DNA of 64,000 bases from Enterococcus moraviensis ATCC BAA-383 (GTDB taxonomy: Bacteria > Bacillota > Bacilli > Lactobacillales > Enterococcaceae), in the NCBI RefSeq assembly GCF_000407445.1, contig NZ_ASWB01000001.1, positions 620,001 to 684,000 of the forward strand, read 5' to 3'. The position numbers were made by a program, and so were the translations under genes. The stretch's first letter is position 1; every line of letters starts with the position of its first letter. Shown piece by piece: positions 3,303 through 21,790 of this stretch. The notes under the pieces are model-generated. The model saw only the letters and a program-made list of their open reading frames with translations, did no database searches and was not told where the DNA came from.

Positions 3303-5864
3303 TTATTGTTTGATTTCTTCCATAACGAAGCCTTCAATTACATCATCGACTTTAAGGTCGTTGAAGTTTTCAACCATCGCACCACATTCAAAGCCAAGTT
3401 TGACTTCTTTGGCATCATCTTTAAAGCGTTTCAAGCTTGATAGTTTCCCTTCAAAGATCACAATACCATCGCGAATCACACGAACGCCGCTATCACGACG
3501 GATAGAGCCTTCCGTTACGTAACAACCAGCAATTGTTCCAACTTTAGATACTTTATAAAGTTCGCGGACTGTCATTTGACCTGTAATTTTTTCCTCAAAT
3601 TCAGGATCAAGCATTCCTTTCATCGCTGTTTCGATTTCTTCGATGGCTTTGTAGATGATACGGTGTAAACGGATATCCACTTCTTCTTGCTCAGCTTGTT
3701 GTTTTGCTTGTGGCGTCGGACGAACGTTAAACCCAATGATGATCGCATTACTTGCTGCGGCAAGCGTTACGTCACTTTCATTGATTGCTCCAACTGCCGA
3801 GTGAACGATTTTCACACGAACACCTGCAACTTCGATTTTTTGTAAACTTGCTGCCAATGCTTCTGCTGTACCTTGTACATCTGCTTTAATAATCACGTTA
3901 ACATCTTTCAACTCGCCTTCTTTTAGGCTTTCGAATAAGTTGTCTAACGTTACACGATTATTTGAAGAACGTTGTTCAAGAACGGCGCGTTTGCCACGTT
4001 CTTCCCCTGCTTGACGAGCTGTTTTTTCATCTTCAAAGACTACAAAACGATCTCCTGCTTGCGGTACATCATTTAGACCAGTGATTTCTACTGGCGTTGC
4101 TGGACCTACTGCCTTATCACGACGACCAATATCATTCGTCATAACACGAACGCGTCCGAATGTATTTCCGACTACGATTGGATCTCCAACTCGTAATGAA
4201 CCTTGTTGAACAAGCAATGTCGCAACAGGGCCTTTTCCTTTATCTAAACGAGCTTCGATCACTGTACCGATTGCGCGTTGCGTTGGGTCAGCTTTCAAGT
4301 CTTCTACTTCAGCAATTAAAAGAATATTTTCTAATAATTCTTCAATGTTTTGATTGAATTTCGCCGAAATATTCACGAAGATCGTATCTCCACCCCATTC
4401 TTCAGGAATCAAGCCATGTTCGCTTAATTCTTGTTTTACGTGATCAGGGTTGGCACCCGGTTTATCAACTTTGTTGACTGCTACGATAATTGGTACTTCT
4501 GCTGCTTTAGCATGATTGATGGCTTCAACAGTTTGCGGCATTACACCATCATCTGCTGCAACAACTAAGATCGTAATATCTGTGATACCAGCTCCACGAG
4601 CACGCATGCTTGTAAACGCCGCATGTCCTGGTGTATCTAAGAAAGTGATTGGTTTGCCATCGATATCGATTTGGTACGCACCAATATGTTGTGTGATACC
4701 ACCCGCTTCACCAGAAGTTACACGTGAATTACGTAAAGTATCAAGCAATGTTGTTTTACCGTGGTCAACGTGACCCATGATCGTTACAACTGGCGGACGT
4801 GTTACAAGATTTTCTTCAACTAATGCTTCTGGTTCGAAGAATTTATCGATATCAGCAACATCGACTTGCACTTTTTCTTGTGGTTCCATTCCGTAATCTA
4901 CTGCCAATAGTTCGATTGTTTCTTTATCTAGGGATTGGTTTTGATTGACCATAACGCCCATCATAAATAGTTTCTTGATGATTTCAGCTGGTTCGCGATG
5001 AATTTTCTTCGCGATATCGGCTACGTTCATTCCTTCAGTATATTCTAATACATCTGGTAATTCACGGAATTTACGCGCTGGTACAGCTGGTTTTGTAGAT
5101 TCTTGGTATTTACCTTTTTTGCCTTTTTTATTGTATCTGTTGCGGTTTTGGTTATTGTAGCCATTACGGTTACGATTTTGGCCTCCGCCACCACCAAAAC
5201 TGTTGTTACGATTTCCAGAATTAGTATTGTTACGGTTTTGATTGCCTTGTGTGTTAGTGCTATTTTGTCCTTGTTGAGCTGGACGGTTTTGATTTGTGTT
5301 TTGACTATTTCCTTGGGTGTTACGGTTTTGGTTATTGTTATTGTTACGGTTTTGAGTATTTTGTTGTCCAGATTGTGCTGGACGATTTTGATTGTTTTGT
5401 TGCGGACGGTTTTGCTGTCCTTGATTTGAACGGTTTTGAGTCATATTTTGGCTGCTTCCTTGCATGTTTCGATTTTGGTTGTTGCGATTTTGATTATTTG
5501 TTTGTCCAGATTGTGCTGGACGATTTTGATTGTTTTGTTGCGGACGATTTTGTTGTCCGTTTTGTTGTTGCGTTCTTTGTTGATTTTGGTTTGGTCTATT
5601 TCCATTTTGGTTAGCTGGTTTTGGATTTGCTGGTTTTGTGTGTGCTTGACCACTTTGCGCTGCTTGTGGTTTAGCCGCAGGTTTTTGTTGTGTATTTGCA
5701 GGTTTGTTTCCTCCAAATGAGTTGCGAAGTTTTGATTCGTCCTCAGAAGAAATTGCGCCCATGTGGTTTTTCACATCCATACCTAAAGCATGTGCTTTTT
5801 CGACAACATCTTTACTCGATTGATTGATTTCTTTTGCTAATTCATAAATTCTTTTTTTTCCCAT
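3303..5864 (-). CDS. infB: Translation initiation factor IF-2
   Basis: An 853-residue GTPase that brings fMet-tRNA to the 30S subunit and promotes subunit joining. Residues 1-50 are an IF2_N module. Residues 53-250 are an extremely N/Q/R-rich low-complexity linker, and a second IF2_N-like module follows near 265-315. The G domain has GHVDHGKT (364-371), DTPGH (410-414) and NKVD (464-467); the C-terminal domains end at [10 protein letters not shown]. The linker contains a direct duplication of about 46 residues (104-149 and 150-199), seen also in the DNA at 5268-5555. The gene follows ylxQ by 12 bp. Confidence 0.98.
5268..5555 (-). repeat. Internal duplication in the infB linker
   Basis: Two adjacent units of about 138 and 150 bp (5418-5555 and 5268-5417) each encode [18 protein letters not shown] followed by an N/Q/R-rich tail with QG. 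The first 55-60 bp of the two units are nearly identical in DNA; the rest has diverged. It looks like an in-frame duplication in a disordered linker. Confidence 0.8.
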
Positions 5865-15381: not shown

Positions 15382-15410
15382 TTGACTTTACTAGGAATAT
15401 TCACTATATT
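15382..15410 (+). promoter_or_regulatory. Promoter of the M-box/LCP/SEDS operon
   Basis: TTGACT (15382-15387) and TATATT (15405-15410) are separated by exactly 17 bp. The expected start, about 15417, coincides with the beginning of the M-box aptamer. Confidence 0.8.
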
Positions 15411-15411
15411 T

Positions 15412-15600
15412 AAGGCGATCTGAATAACTTGTTAGGTGAGGCTCCTATGGAAACACAGGCTACTGCTCAAAAATGTCGAAAGACAGGAATGGGTAGGACA
15501 GGAATTGTCGAATTAAGGCTTTTCACAAAGTAGCTAAAAGCTCTGCTTTTTACGTTTCATAGTGCTAAAACTCAACGATGAGAATGATGAAAAGCTTTAT
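15412..15600 (+). promoter_or_regulatory. M-box (ykoK-type) magnesium riboswitch aptamer
   Basis: The strand carries the conserved M-box blocks in order: GTTAGGTGAGGCTCCTAT, then ACAGGCTACTGCTCAAAAA, then a GTCGAAAGAC hairpin, AATGGGT and GAATTAAGGCTT, with AGTGCTAAAACTCAACGATG near the end. These are the hallmark elements of the Mg2+-sensing leader of mgtE/ykoK-type genes. An intrinsic terminator follows at 15621-15652, so high Mg2+ would favour premature termination. The gene downstream is an LCP protein and not a magnesium transporter. Confidence 0.92.
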
Positions 15601-15620
15601 TTGTGCTGAAATCAATCCCC

Positions 15621-15652
15621 CTTCGCTGAGTTATTCTAAGCGAAGATTTTTT
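15621..15652 (+). terminator. Riboswitch expression-platform terminator
   Basis: A 7-bp stem (CTTCGCT/AGCGAAG) followed by ATTTTTTG lies 20 bp after the aptamer and about 220 bp before the LCP gene. It is the likely OFF-state terminator of the M-box. The stretch 15653-15870 holds no gene that I can see. Confidence 0.8.
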
Positions 15653-15870
15653 GTTTTGATACATAATGCTGGTACGCTTCAATTATTTTGGGAGGTGAAT
15701 TCGACTATAGATAAGAAAAATAGCCATTTTTTTTAGAAATTTTCTTGTTTATATGAAGCTTCTATCCTCATTATACTAAGCATAAAAACCTTTTTATCCT
15801 GCTATCAAAGTCGATTCCTAATGCCAAACTTTATTGATGATCAATTCATATGATTAGCGAGGAATAGAAA

Positions 15871-16788
15871 ATGAAAAAAGTCTTGATTTGCGTATTTCTT
15901 TGTACACTCCTTATTATTACAGCAATTGGAAGTTACGCCGTAATAAGTTTTCATAATGGGAAAAAGATAGCTAAATCACAAGTAAATAAAACAAAAAACA
16001 CCAATTTTTCTGGTGATCAACAAACTAACATGAAAGAAATCACAATTATGCTGATTGGTGATGATGGTCGTGAAGATGACGAAGACGGCGGACGAGCAGA
16101 TACTTTAATGGTAGCTCACTACAATAGTGAAACCAAACAGCCTAAACTTATTTCAATCATGCGGGACTCTTATGTGGAGATTCCTGATCATGGCTTAGAA
16201 AAAATCAATGCTGCCTATGCTTATGGCGGCGCAGACCTCACGCGAAAAGTGCTCAATGATTCGTTTGGTTTACCGATCAATTATTATATTTCGGTCGATT
16301 TTAATCATTTTATCCGTTTGATCAATGAACTTTACCCAAAGGGCATTGAAATCGATGCAGAAAAAGAGATTGATTTAGACAATGTAGTACTCAAAAAAGG
16401 ACTACAAATCATGGATGGCCATACATTATTGCAATATGCTCGTTTTAGGATGGATGAAGAAGGCGATTTTGGTCGTATTAGAAGACAGCAACAAGTTATG
16501 GATGCTTTGGCCAAACAATCTAAAAAGGCTGTTTCATTTATACAACTTCCTAAAATTGCGGGTGAAGCGATTGGCTATTTGGATACAAATATTCCAGCAG
16601 ATCTACTTGTTGACCTTGCAAAAGATTTTCTTACAGGAAATGTCAAAGATCTTGAAACACTATCAGTACCAGTTAAAGGGAGCTGGTCATTCAATGATTA
16701 TACGGATGCGGGTAGTGTTTTAGAAATCGATGAACAGCAAAATAAAAAGGCCATCCAAGACTTTTTGGCTGACGGAGCATCACAATGA
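15871..16788 (+). CDS. LytR-CpsA-Psr (LCP) family cell-wall glycopolymer ligase
   Basis: A 305-residue membrane protein with one N-terminal TM segment (about 5-27) and an extracellular LCP domain (about 53-215). LCP enzymes transfer wall teichoic acid or polysaccharide from lipid carriers to peptidoglycan using Mg2+. Seen here are RADTLM (75-80), SIMRDSYVEIP with R98, INAAYAYGG, and the YARFR...GDFGRIRRQQQ block (189-208), which hold the polyprenyl-phosphate-binding arginines. The start is ATG 15871 after GAGGAA. The next SEDS gene overlaps its stop by ATGA. It is the first gene under the M-box riboswitch. Confidence 0.9.
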   Translation: MKKVLICVFLCTLLIITAIGSYAVISFHNGKKIAKSQVNKTKNTNFSGDQQTNMKEITIMLIGDDGREDDEDGGRADTLMVAHYNSETKQPKLISIMRDSYVEIPDHGLEKINAAYAYGGADLTRKVLNDSFGLPINYYISVDFNHFIRLINELYPKGIEIDAEKEIDLDNVVLKKGLQIMDGHTLLQYARFRMDEEGDFGRIRRQQQVMDALAKQSKKAVSFIQLPKIAGEAIGYLDTNIPADLLVDLAKDFLTGNVKDLETLSVPVKGSWSFNDYTDAGSVLEIDEQQNKKAIQDFLADGASQ

Positions 16789-17963
16789 AGCAGCCCAAGA
16801 AAATCTCTAAACTACATTATCTTGATTTTTATATTCTACTCCCTTACTTAATCCTTTGTGTTATTGGTATTTTGATGGTGTATAGCTCTAGCTCTTATCA
16901 TCTATTGGATAGTGAATTGGGTACAGCAAGTAAAGCTATCAAGCAAACATCCTATTTTATTTTTAGCCTTATCTGTATGGGCTTTATGTATCGAATCAAC
17001 TTAACTATTTTTAGAAAACCTAAAATAATGTATTTTATTCTCGTCTTGACCTTTCTTACCTTAATTTCGCTGCCGTTGATCGGTACAAGTGTTGGTGGGG
17101 CAAAGCGCTGGATCAATCTTGGAATACTTTTATTTCAGCCATCAGAGTTGGTTCCACTTGTGCTTATCCTTTTTCTCGCAACAAATTTATCAAAAAACAA
17201 TACACTCGTTCCTTTTTCTTTAAAAGATCATAAAGGCTCACTTTTGGTTTCTTTGTTTTTTATGATTTTAGTAGCGCTTCAGCCCAATATTGCAGGTGCA
17301 TCTATGATTTTCATTTTAGTCGCAGTACTATTTTTATCAAGCGGTCTCTCTCCTCTATTCATGTCGCTTGCTTTGATTGGATTTGTTGCACTTAAACGCT
17401 TAGGTACCGTTGTATTATTATCAATTCCAACCGACTGGATGCCAGATAAATTCAGTTATTTAGTTACTCGTTTTGAAGTAATGCAAAATCCTTTCATTGA
17501 TCCAACTGGCAAAGGGTTTCAAACATCCAATGCTTATTACGCGATGCACAACGGTGGATTTTTTGGACGTGGCTTGGGCAATAGCATTCAAAAGAAAGGC
17601 TTTCTCCCAGCTGCTGACACTGACTTTATCTTCGCTATTTGTATTGAGGAATTGGGGTTAATTTTTTCTTTAGTTATTTTATTTTTGGTCTTCTTTATGG
17701 TGGGACGTTTATTTCTATTAGCCATAAAGTCTAAAATCCTTTATTATTCATACCTTTACATTGGTTGTGGCATGTTGTTGTGTTTACAAGTTTCAGTTAA
17801 TGTTGGCAGTCTTTTAGGTTATATCCCGATGACTGGATTAACCTTCCCATTTATTAGTTATGGTGGCTCTAGCTTACTGATACTTAGTATCACTCTAGCT
17901 ATTGCTCTAAATGCTCGTGGATCAGAGCTTCGAGAGCAATATAAACTAGGAGGGATGATATGA
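16785..17963 (+). CDS. FtsW-like SEDS peptidoglycan glycosyltransferase
   Basis: A 392-residue polytopic protein with about ten TM helices. SEDS proteins polymerise lipid II into glycan strands with a partner class B PBP. Diagnostic are GTSVGGAKRWINLG, the ADTDFIFAICIEELG loop with the essential aspartate, and PMTGLTFPFISYGGSS near the C-terminus. It overlaps both neighbours by 4 bp (ATGA), so the three genes are one translationally coupled unit. The housekeeping ftsW is expected elsewhere; this looks like an accessory paralogue, comparable to the FtsW2/RodA3 pair of Listeria. No PBP gene adjoins it. Confidence 0.9.
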   Translation: MKQPKKISKLHYLDFYILLPYLILCVIGILMVYSSSSYHLLDSELGTASKAIKQTSYFIFSLICMGFMYRINLTIFRKPKIMYFILVLTFLTLISLPLIGTSVGGAKRWINLGILLFQPSELVPLVLILFLATNLSKNNTLVPFSLKDHKGSLLVSLFFMILVALQPNIAGASMIFILVAVLFLSSGLSPLFMSLALIGFVALKRLGTVVLLSIPTDWMPDKFSYLVTRFEVMQNPFIDPTGKGFQTSNAYYAMHNGGFFGRGLGNSIQKKGFLPAADTDFIFAICIEELGLIFSLVILFLVFFMVGRLFLLAIKSKILYYSYLYIGCGMLLCLQVSVNVGSLLGYIPMTGLTFPFISYGGSSLLILSITLAIALNARGSELREQYKLGGMI

Positions 17964-19141
17964 GAAGAGCCATTCATTCAAAAAGCGAGCTGATAAATTA
18001 TGCCTTGTTGCTACCAGTATTTCTTCTGATTCTAGTTGGTTTCATTGCACAATACGGTGCATTTCATGCAGATCCTTCTGTCGAGTCTATTGCACCTTTG
18101 TTAAAAAGGCAACTTCTTTGGACACTTCTAGGAATCCTAACAATGTTTGCAACAATGTTTATTCCAATTAAATACTTGTGGAAATTAACACCAGTCATTT
18201 ATGGGGCTTCCTTATTTTTAATGAGTTTACTTATTAAATTTCATGATCCAGTTATGGCTGTAGCAACAGGAACAAAACGTTGGCTTCGCTTAGGTCCAAT
18301 TTCCTTTCAGCCATCAGAATTTATGAAACTTGGCTATATTTTGATGCTCGCTTATATTGTGACAAAATGCCGACAAAATACATCCAATCCGTCAACATTA
18401 AAAGAAGATTTCCGCTTATTAGGAAAGATGTCACTAGTCAGCCTTCCTATTATGGCGTTGATGTTTTATCAAAAGGACTTCGGAACAAGCTTGGTGTTTA
18501 TTTCAATTTTCCTTGGTGTTGTATTGATTTCTGGATGTTCTTGGAAAATTTTAGCAGTCGGGTTCGGTAGTATAGGTGTACTTGGTGTGAGTAGTATTTT
18601 ATTGGTCTTAACAGAACGAGGACAAAAAATCCTTTCGCTGCTTCATTTTCAGCCTTATCAATTTAATCGCATTCACGCATGGCTTAACCCCTTTGAATAT
18701 GCCGATACAATCTCCTTCCAACAAGCGCGTGGTTTAATTGCTATCGGCTCTGGAGAGATGTTAGGAAAAGGACTGACAAATATGCAAATCTATGTACCTG
18801 TCCGAGAATCTGATATGATTTTCACCGTAATAGGTGAAGCTTATGGATTTGTTGGAACATGTGCCTTGATTTTACTTTTCTTTTATTTGATTTATCAAAT
18901 GTTGATTTGTACTTTAAATGCAAAACGGGAGTTTTACGCTTATATTACAACAGGTGTCATCATGTATTTCTTATTTCATATCCTTGAAAACATCGGATCG
19001 AATATTGGCTTACTACCATTGACAGGAATTCCATTACCTTTTATTAGCCAAGGTGGAACAGCATATTTAGCTAATTTTATCGGAGTCGGCTTGATCCTTT
19101 CCATGTATTATCAAAAAGAAAAAGACTATCCATTTCGATAA
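17960..19141 (+). CDS. RodA-like SEDS peptidoglycan glycosyltransferase
   Basis: A 393-residue polytopic SEDS protein, a paralogue of the preceding gene. Diagnostic are GTKRWLRLGPISFQPSEF, the QARGLIAIGSGEMLGKGL segment, the VRESDMIFTVIGEAYGF loop with its aspartate, and PLTGIPLPFISQGGTA. The last block has Q where most FtsW/RodA proteins have Y (SYGGS), which may mark the accessory subgroup. It starts in the ATGA overlap with the FtsW-like gene. A shared terminator at 19143-19184 ends the operon. Confidence 0.88.
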   Translation: MRRAIHSKSELINYALLLPVFLLILVGFIAQYGAFHADPSVESIAPLLKRQLLWTLLGILTMFATMFIPIKYLWKLTPVIYGASLFLMSLLIKFHDPVMAVATGTKRWLRLGPISFQPSEFMKLGYILMLAYIVTKCRQNTSNPSTLKEDFRLLGKMSLVSLPIMALMFYQKDFGTSLVFISIFLGVVLISGCSWKILAVGFGSIGVLGVSSILLVLTERGQKILSLLHFQPYQFNRIHAWLNPFEYADTISFQQARGLIAIGSGEMLGKGLTNMQIYVPVRESDMIFTVIGEAYGFVGTCALILLFFYLIYQMLICTLNAKREFYAYITTGVIMYFLFHILENIGSNIGLLPLTGIPLPFISQGGTAYLANFIGVGLILSMYYQKEKDYPFR

Positions 19142-19186: not shown

Positions 19187-21790
19187 TTATTTTTGTTTAA
19201 ATGCTGCTATATTGCTGACAGGGAAACTTTCCCCTCTTTTTACTAATTGGATTTGTATCGCTTCTAAACGATACCCATATTTTGCTGTTCCAGCAGGTTC
19301 TCCGTTTTTAGCCCAACCTAACCAACCAAACTCTTGAGCATGTACGCGATAATAAACATCGTATTCTTTCGCCATTTGACCTGTTAATCTGATTTTAGTT
19401 GCTTCAAGTCTTAATTTTTCACCAGACGTCCCACTCAACTGATCGTTTGAAACAAAACCTTGCCAGCCTTTATTTTGAATATGCGTACTATATTCAATCG
19501 ATCCTGAATATGGCGTGTTTTTCAATTTGATTTTAAGGCCTTCCAAACGGTAACTTTTGCCAGATGTTCCAGCCGTTTGTCCATTTGATACATAGTTTTG
19601 CCACCCAATATTCTGAACATGAGTTGAATACATGATCCTTGTATTTAATTTTGACGGATTGCTGATTGGTCCTGGTGCAGCCTGTCCTTTTTCTACTAAG
19701 CGGATTTCAATTCCCTCTAGACGATAAGAAAAGCCTTCTGTCCCAGCCATTACGCCATTTTTAGCCCAATCTAACCAGCCAACATTCTGCGCATGAACAC
19801 GATAATAGATATCATATTGCTCCGATAGTTTACCGGTTAGATTAACTTTGATTGCTTCTAAACGGTAGCCTTTTCCTGATGTTCCACTCATGCCATTATT
19901 TTTCACTTCCGTTTGCCAGCCAATGTTTTGAACGTGCGTACTGTATACAATGTCACCTGGCACAGGTTGATTTAACAGTTTGATTTTGATTGCTTCTAAT
20001 CTAAGCGACTTCCCTTTAGTGCCAGACATTTGACCATCTAGCTTGCTTTCTTGCCAACCTTGACTTTGGATGTGGGTTTGATAAGACACACTCGCCTTAC
20101 TTTCGATTACCGTTACAGTGACAATTTTTGTTGTTGTTTTTAAATTACTGTTTGTCACTATATATTCTACTTGATAGGCACCGACTTTTGTCGTATCAAC
20201 GGTATTTTTCTTTATCCCTACTCTATCTGTTAAATCGCCGTCTACCTTATCTGACGCACTAATAATTGCCTCTTTAAAGTTAAATTTTGAGTTCAATGGA
20301 ATCGTAATATTTTTAACATTTAACACAGGAGCATCCGCTACAACTGTAACCATCGCTTTTTTACTAGTTGATACGTTACTCGTATTTTTTACAGTATATG
20401 TTACTTCATATTGTCCAGCTTTCGACACATTGAAAATACTAGCTGTAACTTTAGTTTTCAAATCACCATCTAATTTATCAGTCGCACTTACGATTGCTAC
20501 TTTTGGATCAAAACTAGTCCCCGCTACGATCGACACATTTTTCACTTGAAGTTCTGGTTTTGGCGCTACAAGATTTACTTTGATTGATTTTGTTGTCGTT
20601 CTGTTACCACTATCAGTAACAGAATATGTCACTTGATAAATACCAACTTTTTTGATGTTAACATTATTTGCGGTTACAATCACTTTTGCTTTTAGATTGA
20701 CTCCGTTATAGTCAACAGCGTCAAACAGAACATCTTTCATCGGATCGAATGAATCTCCTGCAGTTTTTGTAACATCATTAACTGTTAATGTTGGTGGTGC
20801 AATTTTATTTTTAACAGTTATGTCATGATTGACCGACCAATTAGGATTTGTTTTGATAGTTCCATTAAGCGTAGTGGTCCCACTCTTTTTTGCAGTTAAT
20901 AAACCATCAGAATTAATGGTTGCAATCGACGCATTTGACACGGTCCAATTTGTACTTTCATTTGAAATTTTAGCTACAGTACCTGTCCAGCCTCTATTCA
21001 AAATAGAAAGAAAGAATTGGTTGCTATCTCCAACGTCCATAGTCCAAGGACTTCTATAATTTAGTATTAATTTATTGCTGACATCCGTACTGATTGCATA
21101 ACTAACTTTTTGATTATCTGTTCTTTTAAAGTCAGCCACTTGTTTGCTTGAAAAGATTTGAGTCCAAAACATTATACCGCCTTGCGTAAACGACCCTATC
21201 CCAACAGTTTTATAGTTTGGACTCAACATATTCCCTTTATGGCCAGGCGAGTTCATCCAGCCAGTAAATACGGCTTCTGGATCGATATAACCAGCAGCGA
21301 TATTCTCACCTAGATAATAATTTGTAGCATAATTATACTTTTTTAATATCATAGAGAACCCTTCTCCGTTCGGTCGATTATGACTAAAATCCACATTTAT
21401 TTCTGCCGAGCGCTCCATAGCAGCTTCTTGTAACGTTTGATCCATTGCTAACGCTGATAGCCCATTTTTCTTACGTTCAGCATTCATCAGCTCCAAAACA
21501 CGATAAGCAAAATCAAACTTTTTAGTCCCCTGAATCGATAAATCCGCAACAGCCACTCGACTGGTTGCTCTATCTGCTTTTTCTGAATCGGATTCACTAT
21601 TTTCAATTGAAACACTTTCTCCAATGACAGATTTTCCACCACTCTCTTCGATTCTACTCTCTTGTGTTTCATTCATTTGATCCTGATATACCACTTCAGC
21701 TTCAACGGTACTATTGTTAAAGACTGTGATACTAAGCAAACTAAAAACACCAACCAAACATTTTTTTAAAACGCTTCCTTTTTTTTCCAT
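19187..21790 (-). CDS. Large secreted CAP-domain protein with Ig-like and six ChW repeats
   Basis: An 867-residue surface protein. Residues 1-31 form a signal peptide. A CAP domain spans about 97-215, with FSHNRPNGEGF, GENIAAG and WMNSPGHKGNML. A BIG2-like region lies at 245-327. Three DUF5011-type Ig-like domains follow at about 333-407, 412-483 and 488-562. Six ChW (clostridial hydrophobic W) repeats are at 570-605, 615-650, 661-698, 719-756, 766-802 and 812-849. Each has an H-x-Q-x-x-GW core and a YRLEAI-like end. Repeats 1-3 and 4-6 form two similar triplets. There is no LPXTG, so ChW repeats may mediate wall or host contact; this is inference. Confidence 0.88.
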   Translation of the reverse strand: MEKKGSVLKKCLVGVFSLLSITVFNNSTVEAEVVYQDQMNETQESRIEESGGKSVIGESVSIENSESDSEKADRATSRVAVADLSIQGTKKFDFAYRVLELMNAERKKNGLSALAMDQTLQEAAMERSAEINVDFSHNRPNGEGFSMILKKYNYATNYYLGENIAAGYIDPEAVFTGWMNSPGHKGNMLSPNYKTVGIGSFTQGGIMFWTQIFSSKQVADFKRTDNQKVSYAISTDVSNKLILNYRSPWTMDVGDSNQFFLSILNRGWTGTVAKISNESTNWTVSNASIATINSDGLLTAKKSGTTTLNGTIKTNPNWSVNHDITVKNKIAPPTLTVNDVTKTAGDSFDPMKDVLFDAVDYNGVNLKAKVIVTANNVNIKKVGIYQVTYSVTDSGNRTTTKSIKVNLVAPKPELQVKNVSIVAGTSFDPKVAIVSATDKLDGDLKTKVTASIFNVSKAGQYEVTYTVKNTSNVSTSKKAMVTVVADAPVLNVKNITIPLNSKFNFKEAIISASDKVDGDLTDRVGIKKNTVDTTKVGAYQVEYIVTNSNLKTTTKIVTVTVIESKASVSYQTHIQSQGWQESKLDGQMSGTKGKSLRLEAIKIKLLNQPVPGDIVYSTHVQNIGWQTEVKNNGMSGTSGKGYRLEAIKVNLTGKLSEQYDIYYRVHAQNVGWLDWAKNGVMAGTEGFSYRLEGIEIRLVEKGQAAPGPISNPSKLNTRIMYSTHVQNIGWQNYVSNGQTAGTSGKSYRLEGLKIKLKNTPYSGSIEYSTHIQNKGWQGFVSNDQLSGTSGEKLRLEATKIRLTGQMAKEYDVYYRVHAQEFGWLGWAKNGEPAGTAKYGYRLEAIQIQLVKRGESFPVSNIAAFKQK

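Follow-up and report, generated by a model that had tools for sequence, protein, structure and literature searches.

Background

M-box riboswitches constitute a class of RNA elements whose folding responds to Mg2+ and which turn off transporter genes (PMC12824596; citations by PMC number refer throughout to passages of the respective papers), an example being the leader of ykoK (mgtE) in Bacillus subtilis. Concerning accessory wall polymerases of the SEDS family, the closest described systems are the FtsW2/RodA2 pair of Enterococcus faecalis (OG1RF_11070/11071), whose members possess polymerase activity, can replace FtsW or RodA and are dispensable in standard media (PMC12724132), the ATPase-FtsW2-RodA3 operon lmo2689-lmo2686 of Listeria (PMC6686043), and the ftsW-psr-pbp5 operon of E. 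faecium and E. hirae (PMC5059904, PMC13148053). Here, an M-box is described that precedes genes for a LytR-CpsA-Psr (LCP) transferase and two SEDS polymerases in Enterococcus moraviensis ATCC BAA-383. It lies in a stretch of 64,000 nucleotides (contig NZ_ASWB01000001.1, positions 620,001 to 684,000), called the window in the following, to which coordinates refer unless another sequence is named. The element is very probably a transcription-termination OFF switch, and it seems to belong to a low-Mg2+ response in which a second set of wall enzymes is linked to Mg2+ import.

The window element shares with the ykoK leader the aptamer family, to which it belongs with a high score, and a terminator/antiterminator arrangement that re-uses the P1 strand, whereas its target consists of wall-assembly enzymes and not of a transporter. 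With E. faecalis it has the pair of FtsW2-like and RodA2-like genes in common; the published control of that pair is CroS/R (PMC12724132), and the words riboswitch, magnesium and LytR are absent from the main text of the paper. In G023, which may represent E. faecalis, no M-box stands ahead of the pair. In lmo2689-lmo2686, a SEDS pair likewise stands behind an M-box, but transporter and SEDS genes are united in one operon and an LCP gene is missing. In ftsW-psr-pbp5, SEDS and LCP genes share one operon behind an M-box (NZ_CP065930.1), which, unlike the window operon, ends in the gene for the penicillin-binding protein (PBP) PBP4(5) and contains no RodA2.

Organization of the leader and the operon

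The leader begins on the + strand with a sigma-70-type promoter (TTGACT-17-TATATT, 15382-15410, 10/12 match), followed on the same strand by the M-box aptamer at 15421-15590. The latter is the sole Rfam match of the window at the gathering threshold and covers the full model RF00380 (1-169) with 148.2 bits (E 1.1e-33), the gathering score being 44. The intrinsic terminator (15621-15652, + strand) consists of a stem of 15621-15627 with 15639-15645 and of six T at 15647-15652; in direct folding it reaches -10.9 kcal/mol (z -4.87), which none of 200 shuffles equalled. A simple terminator scan of the region detected none, a failure probably due to its restriction to loops of 3-8.

The 3' strand of P1, AACTCAACG (15569-15577, + strand), can form 8 of 9 pairs with CGCTGAGTT (15624-15632, + strand), which is situated within the 5' arm and loop of the terminator, so that the two would represent the first and second strand of an antiterminator. 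The minimum-energy fold of 15560-15660 (folded without the 5' part of the aptamer) includes this pairing, whose duplex energy is -10.4 versus a mean of -5.3 for shuffled partners, with a fraction of 0.022 as good. As the terminator 5' arm can engage the P1 3' strand, the expression platform and the aptamer P1 are mutually exclusive.

The window leader was aligned with those of 16 same-genus loci (n=17), cut around 100 bases past the terminator. Both promoter hexamers are kept in 17/17 leaders (blocks TTGAC and TATA(T/G)T) and the aptamer is nearly invariant; downstream of the terminator conservation is lost, with no conserved block as far as aligned, an argument against a second promoter under conservation. 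The CTTCGCTGAGT terminator is common to 14 of the 17 leaders. The remaining three (L054, L087, L109) exhibit a different hairpin, the 5' arm of which, TTTCGTTGA, is likewise complementary to the P1 strand; two unrelated terminator hairpins thus point to two platforms with one logic. Via these two platforms, the antiterminator pairing reached the 0.05 level in 13/17 leaders in an automatic test. Of the misses, L056 lay at 0.060, and in L068, L113 and L125 the test took a hairpin further downstream, the usual terminator being visible nonetheless in the alignment.

The three genes behind the leader, all on the + strand, encode the LCP glycopolymer transferase (15871-16788, 305 amino acids; PF03816, 1e-43, residues 75-218), an FtsW2-type SEDS polymerase (16785-17963, 392 amino acids; PF01098, 9e-75) and a RodA2-type SEDS polymerase (17960-19141, 393 amino acids; PF01098, 3.9e-76), with an overlap of 4 bases at each junction. 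A Mg2+ transporter gene, the usual though not defining target of M-boxes, is absent from the operon. Promoter, M-box, terminator, overlapping genes and the lack of a transporter had all been proposed in an initial annotation made from the letters alone; the Rfam scan it had suggested, together with promoter scan, folding and domain searches, bore these out at the coordinates given there.

All three genes are intact and carry the expected motifs. One SEDS protein is nearer to FtsW and the other nearer to RodA, and neither reaches the NCBIfam equivalog cut-off for housekeeping ftsW or rodA (270.6/337.5 and 269/336.7 bits). In the FtsW2-type protein, D278 and D280 are invariant in 9 homologues, and the ESD motif of the RodA2-type protein matches in alignment the TD found in Thermus RodA (6bar); a catalytic role is described for the conserved SEDS Asp (PMC12724132). 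Concerning the LCP protein, the nearest solved chains are MsrR and TagV/TagT, its conserved Arg/Asp block aligns with MsrR (6uex), and an N-terminal membrane segment was recognized by eye. By family it is a glycopolymer transferase, for which transfer to peptidoglycan is predicted; its scores fall under the NCBIfam equivalog cut-offs for TagU and LytR. Convergent to the operon, the window contains a gene for a secreted-looking protein of 867 amino acids with repeats (19187-21790, - strand).

M-boxes in the genome, the genus and the family

The genome (3.59 Mb, six contigs) possesses six M-boxes. Three stand ahead of Mg2+-ATPase units, namely MgtA (C1:613365 and C1:840873) and MgtC-GNAT-MgtA (C2:792263), and three ahead of LCP genes, namely a PAP2-LCP fusion of 536 amino acids (C2:725800), a lone LCP of 304 amino acids (C2:192240) and the window operon. 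Three of the five LCP genes and two of the four SEDS genes of the genome are thereby situated behind M-boxes; the chance of at least three LCP genes among six M-box first genes is about 3e-8, if 3400 genes are assumed. In the fusion (C2:726203-727813; L036 4404-6014), a PAP2 phosphatase domain and an LCP domain are joined in one protein. The GNAT acetyltransferase gene (PF00583; L038 4973-5473) lies between mgtC and mgtA, and a similar-sized gene occupies this position in several relatives.

The enterococcal survey that the initial annotation had suggested covered, for the window's genus, 21 genomes with 89 listed M-boxes, the downstream genes being classed by BLAST against the proteins of the window genome. 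LCP, SEDS or PAP2 genes follow 46 of the 89. An FtsW2-RodA2 unit follows 16, with the LCP gene included in 12, shortened in L092 and lacking in L068, L084 and L113; a lone LCP follows 17, and a gene of the PAP2-LCP type 13 (L051 and L071 possess only the PAP2-sized part of around 225 amino acids, and L065 has the gene split). MgtA or MgtC follows 41 M-boxes, MgtE one (L063), and one is unclear (L129).

In the family survey (105 Enterococcaceae genomes), 49 rows among the matches listed were labelled FtsW2; G102 and G104, in which an M-box also precedes FtsW2, come from separately fetched stretches and are additional to these. The labels FtsW2 and FtsW1 were assigned by score and copy, except that in G025 and G112, with close scores, adjacency decided; G025 falls into the FtsW2 clade of the tree described below, and G112 is outside the tree sample. 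Among the matches listed, 46 of the 49 FtsW2 rows have an M-box of the same orientation at most 1.7 kb ahead of them (17/17 in the window's genus, 29/32 elsewhere), and in the other genera the gap between M-box and ftsW2 measures 75-125 bases. None of the 101 FtsW1-like rows among the matches listed has an upstream M-box, which is weak evidence given a partial M-box list. In a maximum-likelihood tree of 63 SEDS proteins, the Enterococcaceae FtsW2 and one family-f8 protein form a common clade of 26 rows (98/97), from which five housekeeping FtsW proteins are separate. Three FtsW2 matches contain one in-frame TGA (G060:C32:434223, G064:C71:77450, G072:C2:525388).

Behind these M-boxes the gene order varies and the gene set is constant. 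The order LCP-FtsW2-RodA2 belongs to the window's genus. Elsewhere are found FtsW2-RodA2-PAP2LCP (L179, L181, L187, L191, L192, L199, L210, L214 and, in E. raffinosus, L231), FtsW2-RodA2-LCP (L184, L195, L196, L197), FtsW2-RodA2-PAP2 (L245 without and L248 with LCP), FtsW2-LCP-PBP (L201, L205, L209, L215; the PBP tested in L201 and L205 only), LCP-PBP (L212), RodA2-PAP2 (L208) and FtsW2 alone (L178). The PBP of L201, L205 and L212 is PBP4(5) according to NCBIfam (1060-1098 bits). The wall operon behind the window M-box is real, as the initial annotation held, and it does not stand alone: it constitutes one unit of a family-wide set of wall genes behind M-boxes.

Comparison with Listeria and further families

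In the present sample, wall genes frequently stand behind M-boxes in Enterococcaceae and Listeriaceae. The L. monocytogenes sequence NZ_CP030101.1 (2.9 Mb, filed as plasmid) contains a single M-box (153.3 bits), which is followed by genes for an MgtA-type ATPase (861 amino acids), FtsW2 and RodA3 that abut or overlap; the same organization is found in five family-f7 genomes (L300-L304). The parallel to Listeria, which the initial annotation had drawn from accessory FtsW2/RodA3 genes next to a Mg2+-ATPase gene, is thus correct and stronger than claimed, as the sole M-box of this genome heads the operon. Among hand-chosen further M-boxes (20 fetched stretches and L230), PF01098 proteins occur in the units M-box-LCP-FtsW2 (L309, family f8, M-box 148.1 bits), M-box-RodA-like (L314, f6, 143.8 bits) and M-box-MgtA-SEDS (L317, f19, 151.9 bits). 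A lysine riboswitch (99.4 bits; L314 6939-7115) adjoins the M-box-RodA unit on the opposite strand.

In the tree, Listeria FtsW2 is situated outside the enterococcal FtsW2 clade, with long branches and possible false joins; this separate placement hints at an independent recruitment. Five M-box mutations in evolved biofilm lineages of L. monocytogenes are explained via mgtA (PMC12824596), which is there labelled lmo0818, as opposed to the operon lmo2689-lmo2686 of PMC6686043; rodA and ftsW are absent from the main text of the former.

Comparison with ftsW-psr-pbp5 of E. faecium

In E. faecium Dallas 5 p5_70kb (NZ_CP065930.1; L216), a flavin reductase gene, a small gene, an M-box (138.9 bits), FtsW, LCP and PBP4(5) (1075.8 bits) follow each other in this order, and the unit is the operon described as ftsW-psr-pbp5 (PMC5059904, PMC13148053). 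Upstream of ftsW, a palindrome GAAAAGGT-N5-ACCTTTTC and a promoter TCGAAA-19-TATATT, 101 and 76 nucleotides ahead of the start codon, have been described (PMC13148053). In L216, the palindrome lies at 4200-4220, TCGAAA at 4198-4203 and TATATT, after a spacer of 19 bases, at 4223-4228; exactly 101 and 76 bases separate the two hexamers from a GTG at 4305, which is out of frame with the annotated FtsW start at 4354. The 5' arm of the M-box terminator begins at 4183, such that TCGAAA falls into the loop region and the palindrome over the 3' arm and T tract, with TATATT following. The palindrome is also found directly past the M-boxes of L201, L205 and L215.

By position and sequence, we read the published palindrome as the putative expression platform of the riboswitch. 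The main text of PMC13148053 contains no mention of riboswitch, magnesium, Mg2+ or ykoK. Mutations in nusG and rpoB are described there to raise the PBP5 protein, whereas the operon transcripts are not raised, which makes terminator read-through at most a possible route.

Proposed mechanism and alternative explanations

With ample cytosolic Mg2+, the aptamer would fold and hold the P1 3' strand, so that the terminator at 15621-15652 forms and LCP-ftsW2-rodA2 is off. When Mg2+ falls, 15569-15577 would pair with 15624-15632, and this antiterminator would block the terminator and allow the polymerase to read through. The covariance model, the terminator/antiterminator anatomy and comparative genomics all lend strong support to an M-box OFF switch on this operon; as regards the sequence, aptamer, promoter, terminator and exclusive pairing are established, as is the recurrence across genera and families. 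That low Mg2+ turns the operon on is the direction of response we infer. The three LCP-containing and the three MgtA units of the genome would then act together as a low-Mg2+ response, the second wall-enzyme set comprising SEDS polymerases, LCP transferases and the PAP2-LCP fusion, to which the E. faecium group adds PBP4(5). The wall genes are paralogous to housekeeping enzymes and LCP enzymes are Mg2+-dependent (PMC7831098), which suggests replacement or reinforcement at low Mg2+: the M-box-controlled enzymes would allow the wall to grow or glycopolymers to be attached even if the wall or the housekeeping enzymes are weakened by low Mg2+.

Several observations weigh against this interpretation. 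Wall genes behind M-boxes are rare outside Enterococcaceae and Listeriaceae in the present sample: at the 60 best-scoring loci from the surveys of order, class and relatives, the M-box is followed first by MgtA, MgtE, MgtC, an ABC permease or an unassigned gene, with an enterococcal FtsW2 (L280) as the sole wall gene in this position. Three FtsW2 loci (G023, G033, G081) have no upstream M-box; of the stretches around them, L203 and L233 contain none and L176 just one, downstream of the pair. Among the 20 ftsW2-first leaders from other genera, only 2 attain the 0.05 level for antiterminator pairing (in L181, the chosen hairpin lay inside the gene), as do 2 of 4 Listeriaceae leaders. A Listeria P-lmo2689-lacZ fusion, which may or may not include the M-box leader, was unaffected by MgSO4 or EDTA (PMC6686043). 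Finally, homologous genes answer to CroS/R (PMC12724132) or CesR (PMC6686043), which would make M-box control one input among others.

Zinc-free paralogues are known to stand in under zinc starvation, and by analogy the M-box-controlled SEDS and LCP paralogues may work at low Mg2+ and replace Mg2+-hungry housekeeping copies. This possibility, tentative as it is, refines the preferred explanation of a low-Mg2+ switch, since it gives a reason for the presence of the genes. It agrees with the paralogous nature of the units and the separate FtsW2 clade, with the Mg2+ dependence of LCP enzymes (PMC7831098) and with the E. faecalis pair, which is active and substitutes for FtsW/RodA and yet is dispensable in standard media (PMC12724132); however, some M-box units lack LCP or FtsW2. 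It appears rather unlikely that, as the initial annotation had considered besides compensation for a weakened envelope, low Mg2+ raises LCP activity so that additional anionic polymer on the wall keeps Mg2+ available to MgtA at the membrane. Under Mg2+ limitation, bacilli reportedly increase their wall teichoic acid, and one switch type is shared by all three LCP and the three MgtA units, but the SEDS, PAP2 and PBP genes are left unexplained by such cation storage.

Two further explanations would deprive the M-box of most of its role. If the wall genes had once shared an operon with mgtA and merely retained its leader, envelope stress (CroS/R, CesR) would be their real control and the effect of Mg2+ small. 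MgtA, FtsW2 and RodA do form one operon in Listeriaceae, and both the regulation of the homologues (PMC12724132, PMC6686043) and the unresponsive Listeria fusion (PMC6686043) fit, but a nearly invariant aptamer and promoter in 17/17 leaders, next to drifting post-terminator sequence, make such a relic improbable; lone LCP and PAP2-LCP genes, too, stand behind M-boxes, and Listeria FtsW2, on long branches, does not group with that of enterococci. Even less credible is an own promoter of the operon at 15653-15870, which would leave to the M-box only a short terminated RNA and which the initial annotation had named as the case that would overturn its proposal. The promoter scan found no strong promoter there and one weak + strand site (15748, 9/12); promoter-like sites in the scanned region number 6 versus 3.3 expected (sd 1.9), i.e., within chance, the 17-leader alignment offers no conserved block past the terminator as far as aligned, and in other genera the gap between aptamer and ftsW2 is merely 75-125 bases. 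A strong internal promoter is thus supported neither by the scan nor by the alignment.

Implications and relation to published work

Extra Mg2+ rescues several Bacillus wall mutants, and the link between Mg2+ and the wall of Gram-positives is an old question, for which a Mg2+ riboswitch on SEDS, LCP and PBP genes would provide a direct genetic wire. Its recurrence in many relatives of this Enterococcus suggests that these bacteria build their wall differently when magnesium is short. For enterococci in general, a 'low-magnesium wall' programme, in which a fall in cytosolic Mg2+ leads M-boxes to switch on parallel polymerases, glycopolymer ligases and a lipid-carrier phosphatase, joined in the E. 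faecium group by ftsW-psr-pbp5, is conceivable, although we hold it with less than even confidence. If true, cytosolic Mg2+ would feed directly into both septal wall synthesis and the level of the low-affinity PBP, and accessory SEDS genes that are not needed in ordinary media (PMC12724132, PMC6686043) would gain a natural condition of use. The regulatory map of ftsW-psr-pbp5 in E. faecium would have to be re-read, as its promoter and palindrome match the riboswitch terminator in sequence and position; the palindrome described as promoter-proximal (PMC13148053) would then be the M-box terminator. For the M-box mutations of L. monocytogenes biofilms, until now discussed via mgtA (PMC12824596), a second reading is offered.

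The aptamer class itself is not new, and these M-boxes may already be labelled by automated annotation. No paper on an M-box wall regulon was found in open-access full text, nor do the titles and abstract beginnings of the 40 papers listed out of 623 in a broader search describe this circuit; subscription papers were not covered, such that an earlier notice is possible. The two riboswitch passages of PMC7701990 are unrelated, and lytR and ftsW are absent from the main text of the RNA-regulon survey PMC3766115.

Further M-boxes without wall genes

An ABC permease gene (PF00528) stands behind the M-boxes of L177 (5482-8122; G023), L194 (625-3261; G069), L232, L250, L251, L270, L271 and L272. Where tested, an ABC ATPase gene adjoins it, which makes the unit a candidate Mg2+-regulated ABC importer. 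At L206 (506-656), L236, L307 and L312, no same-strand gene of at least 80 amino acids (60 in L206) is situated within around 1 kb downstream of the M-box, and these M-boxes are candidates for orphan or terminated RNAs.

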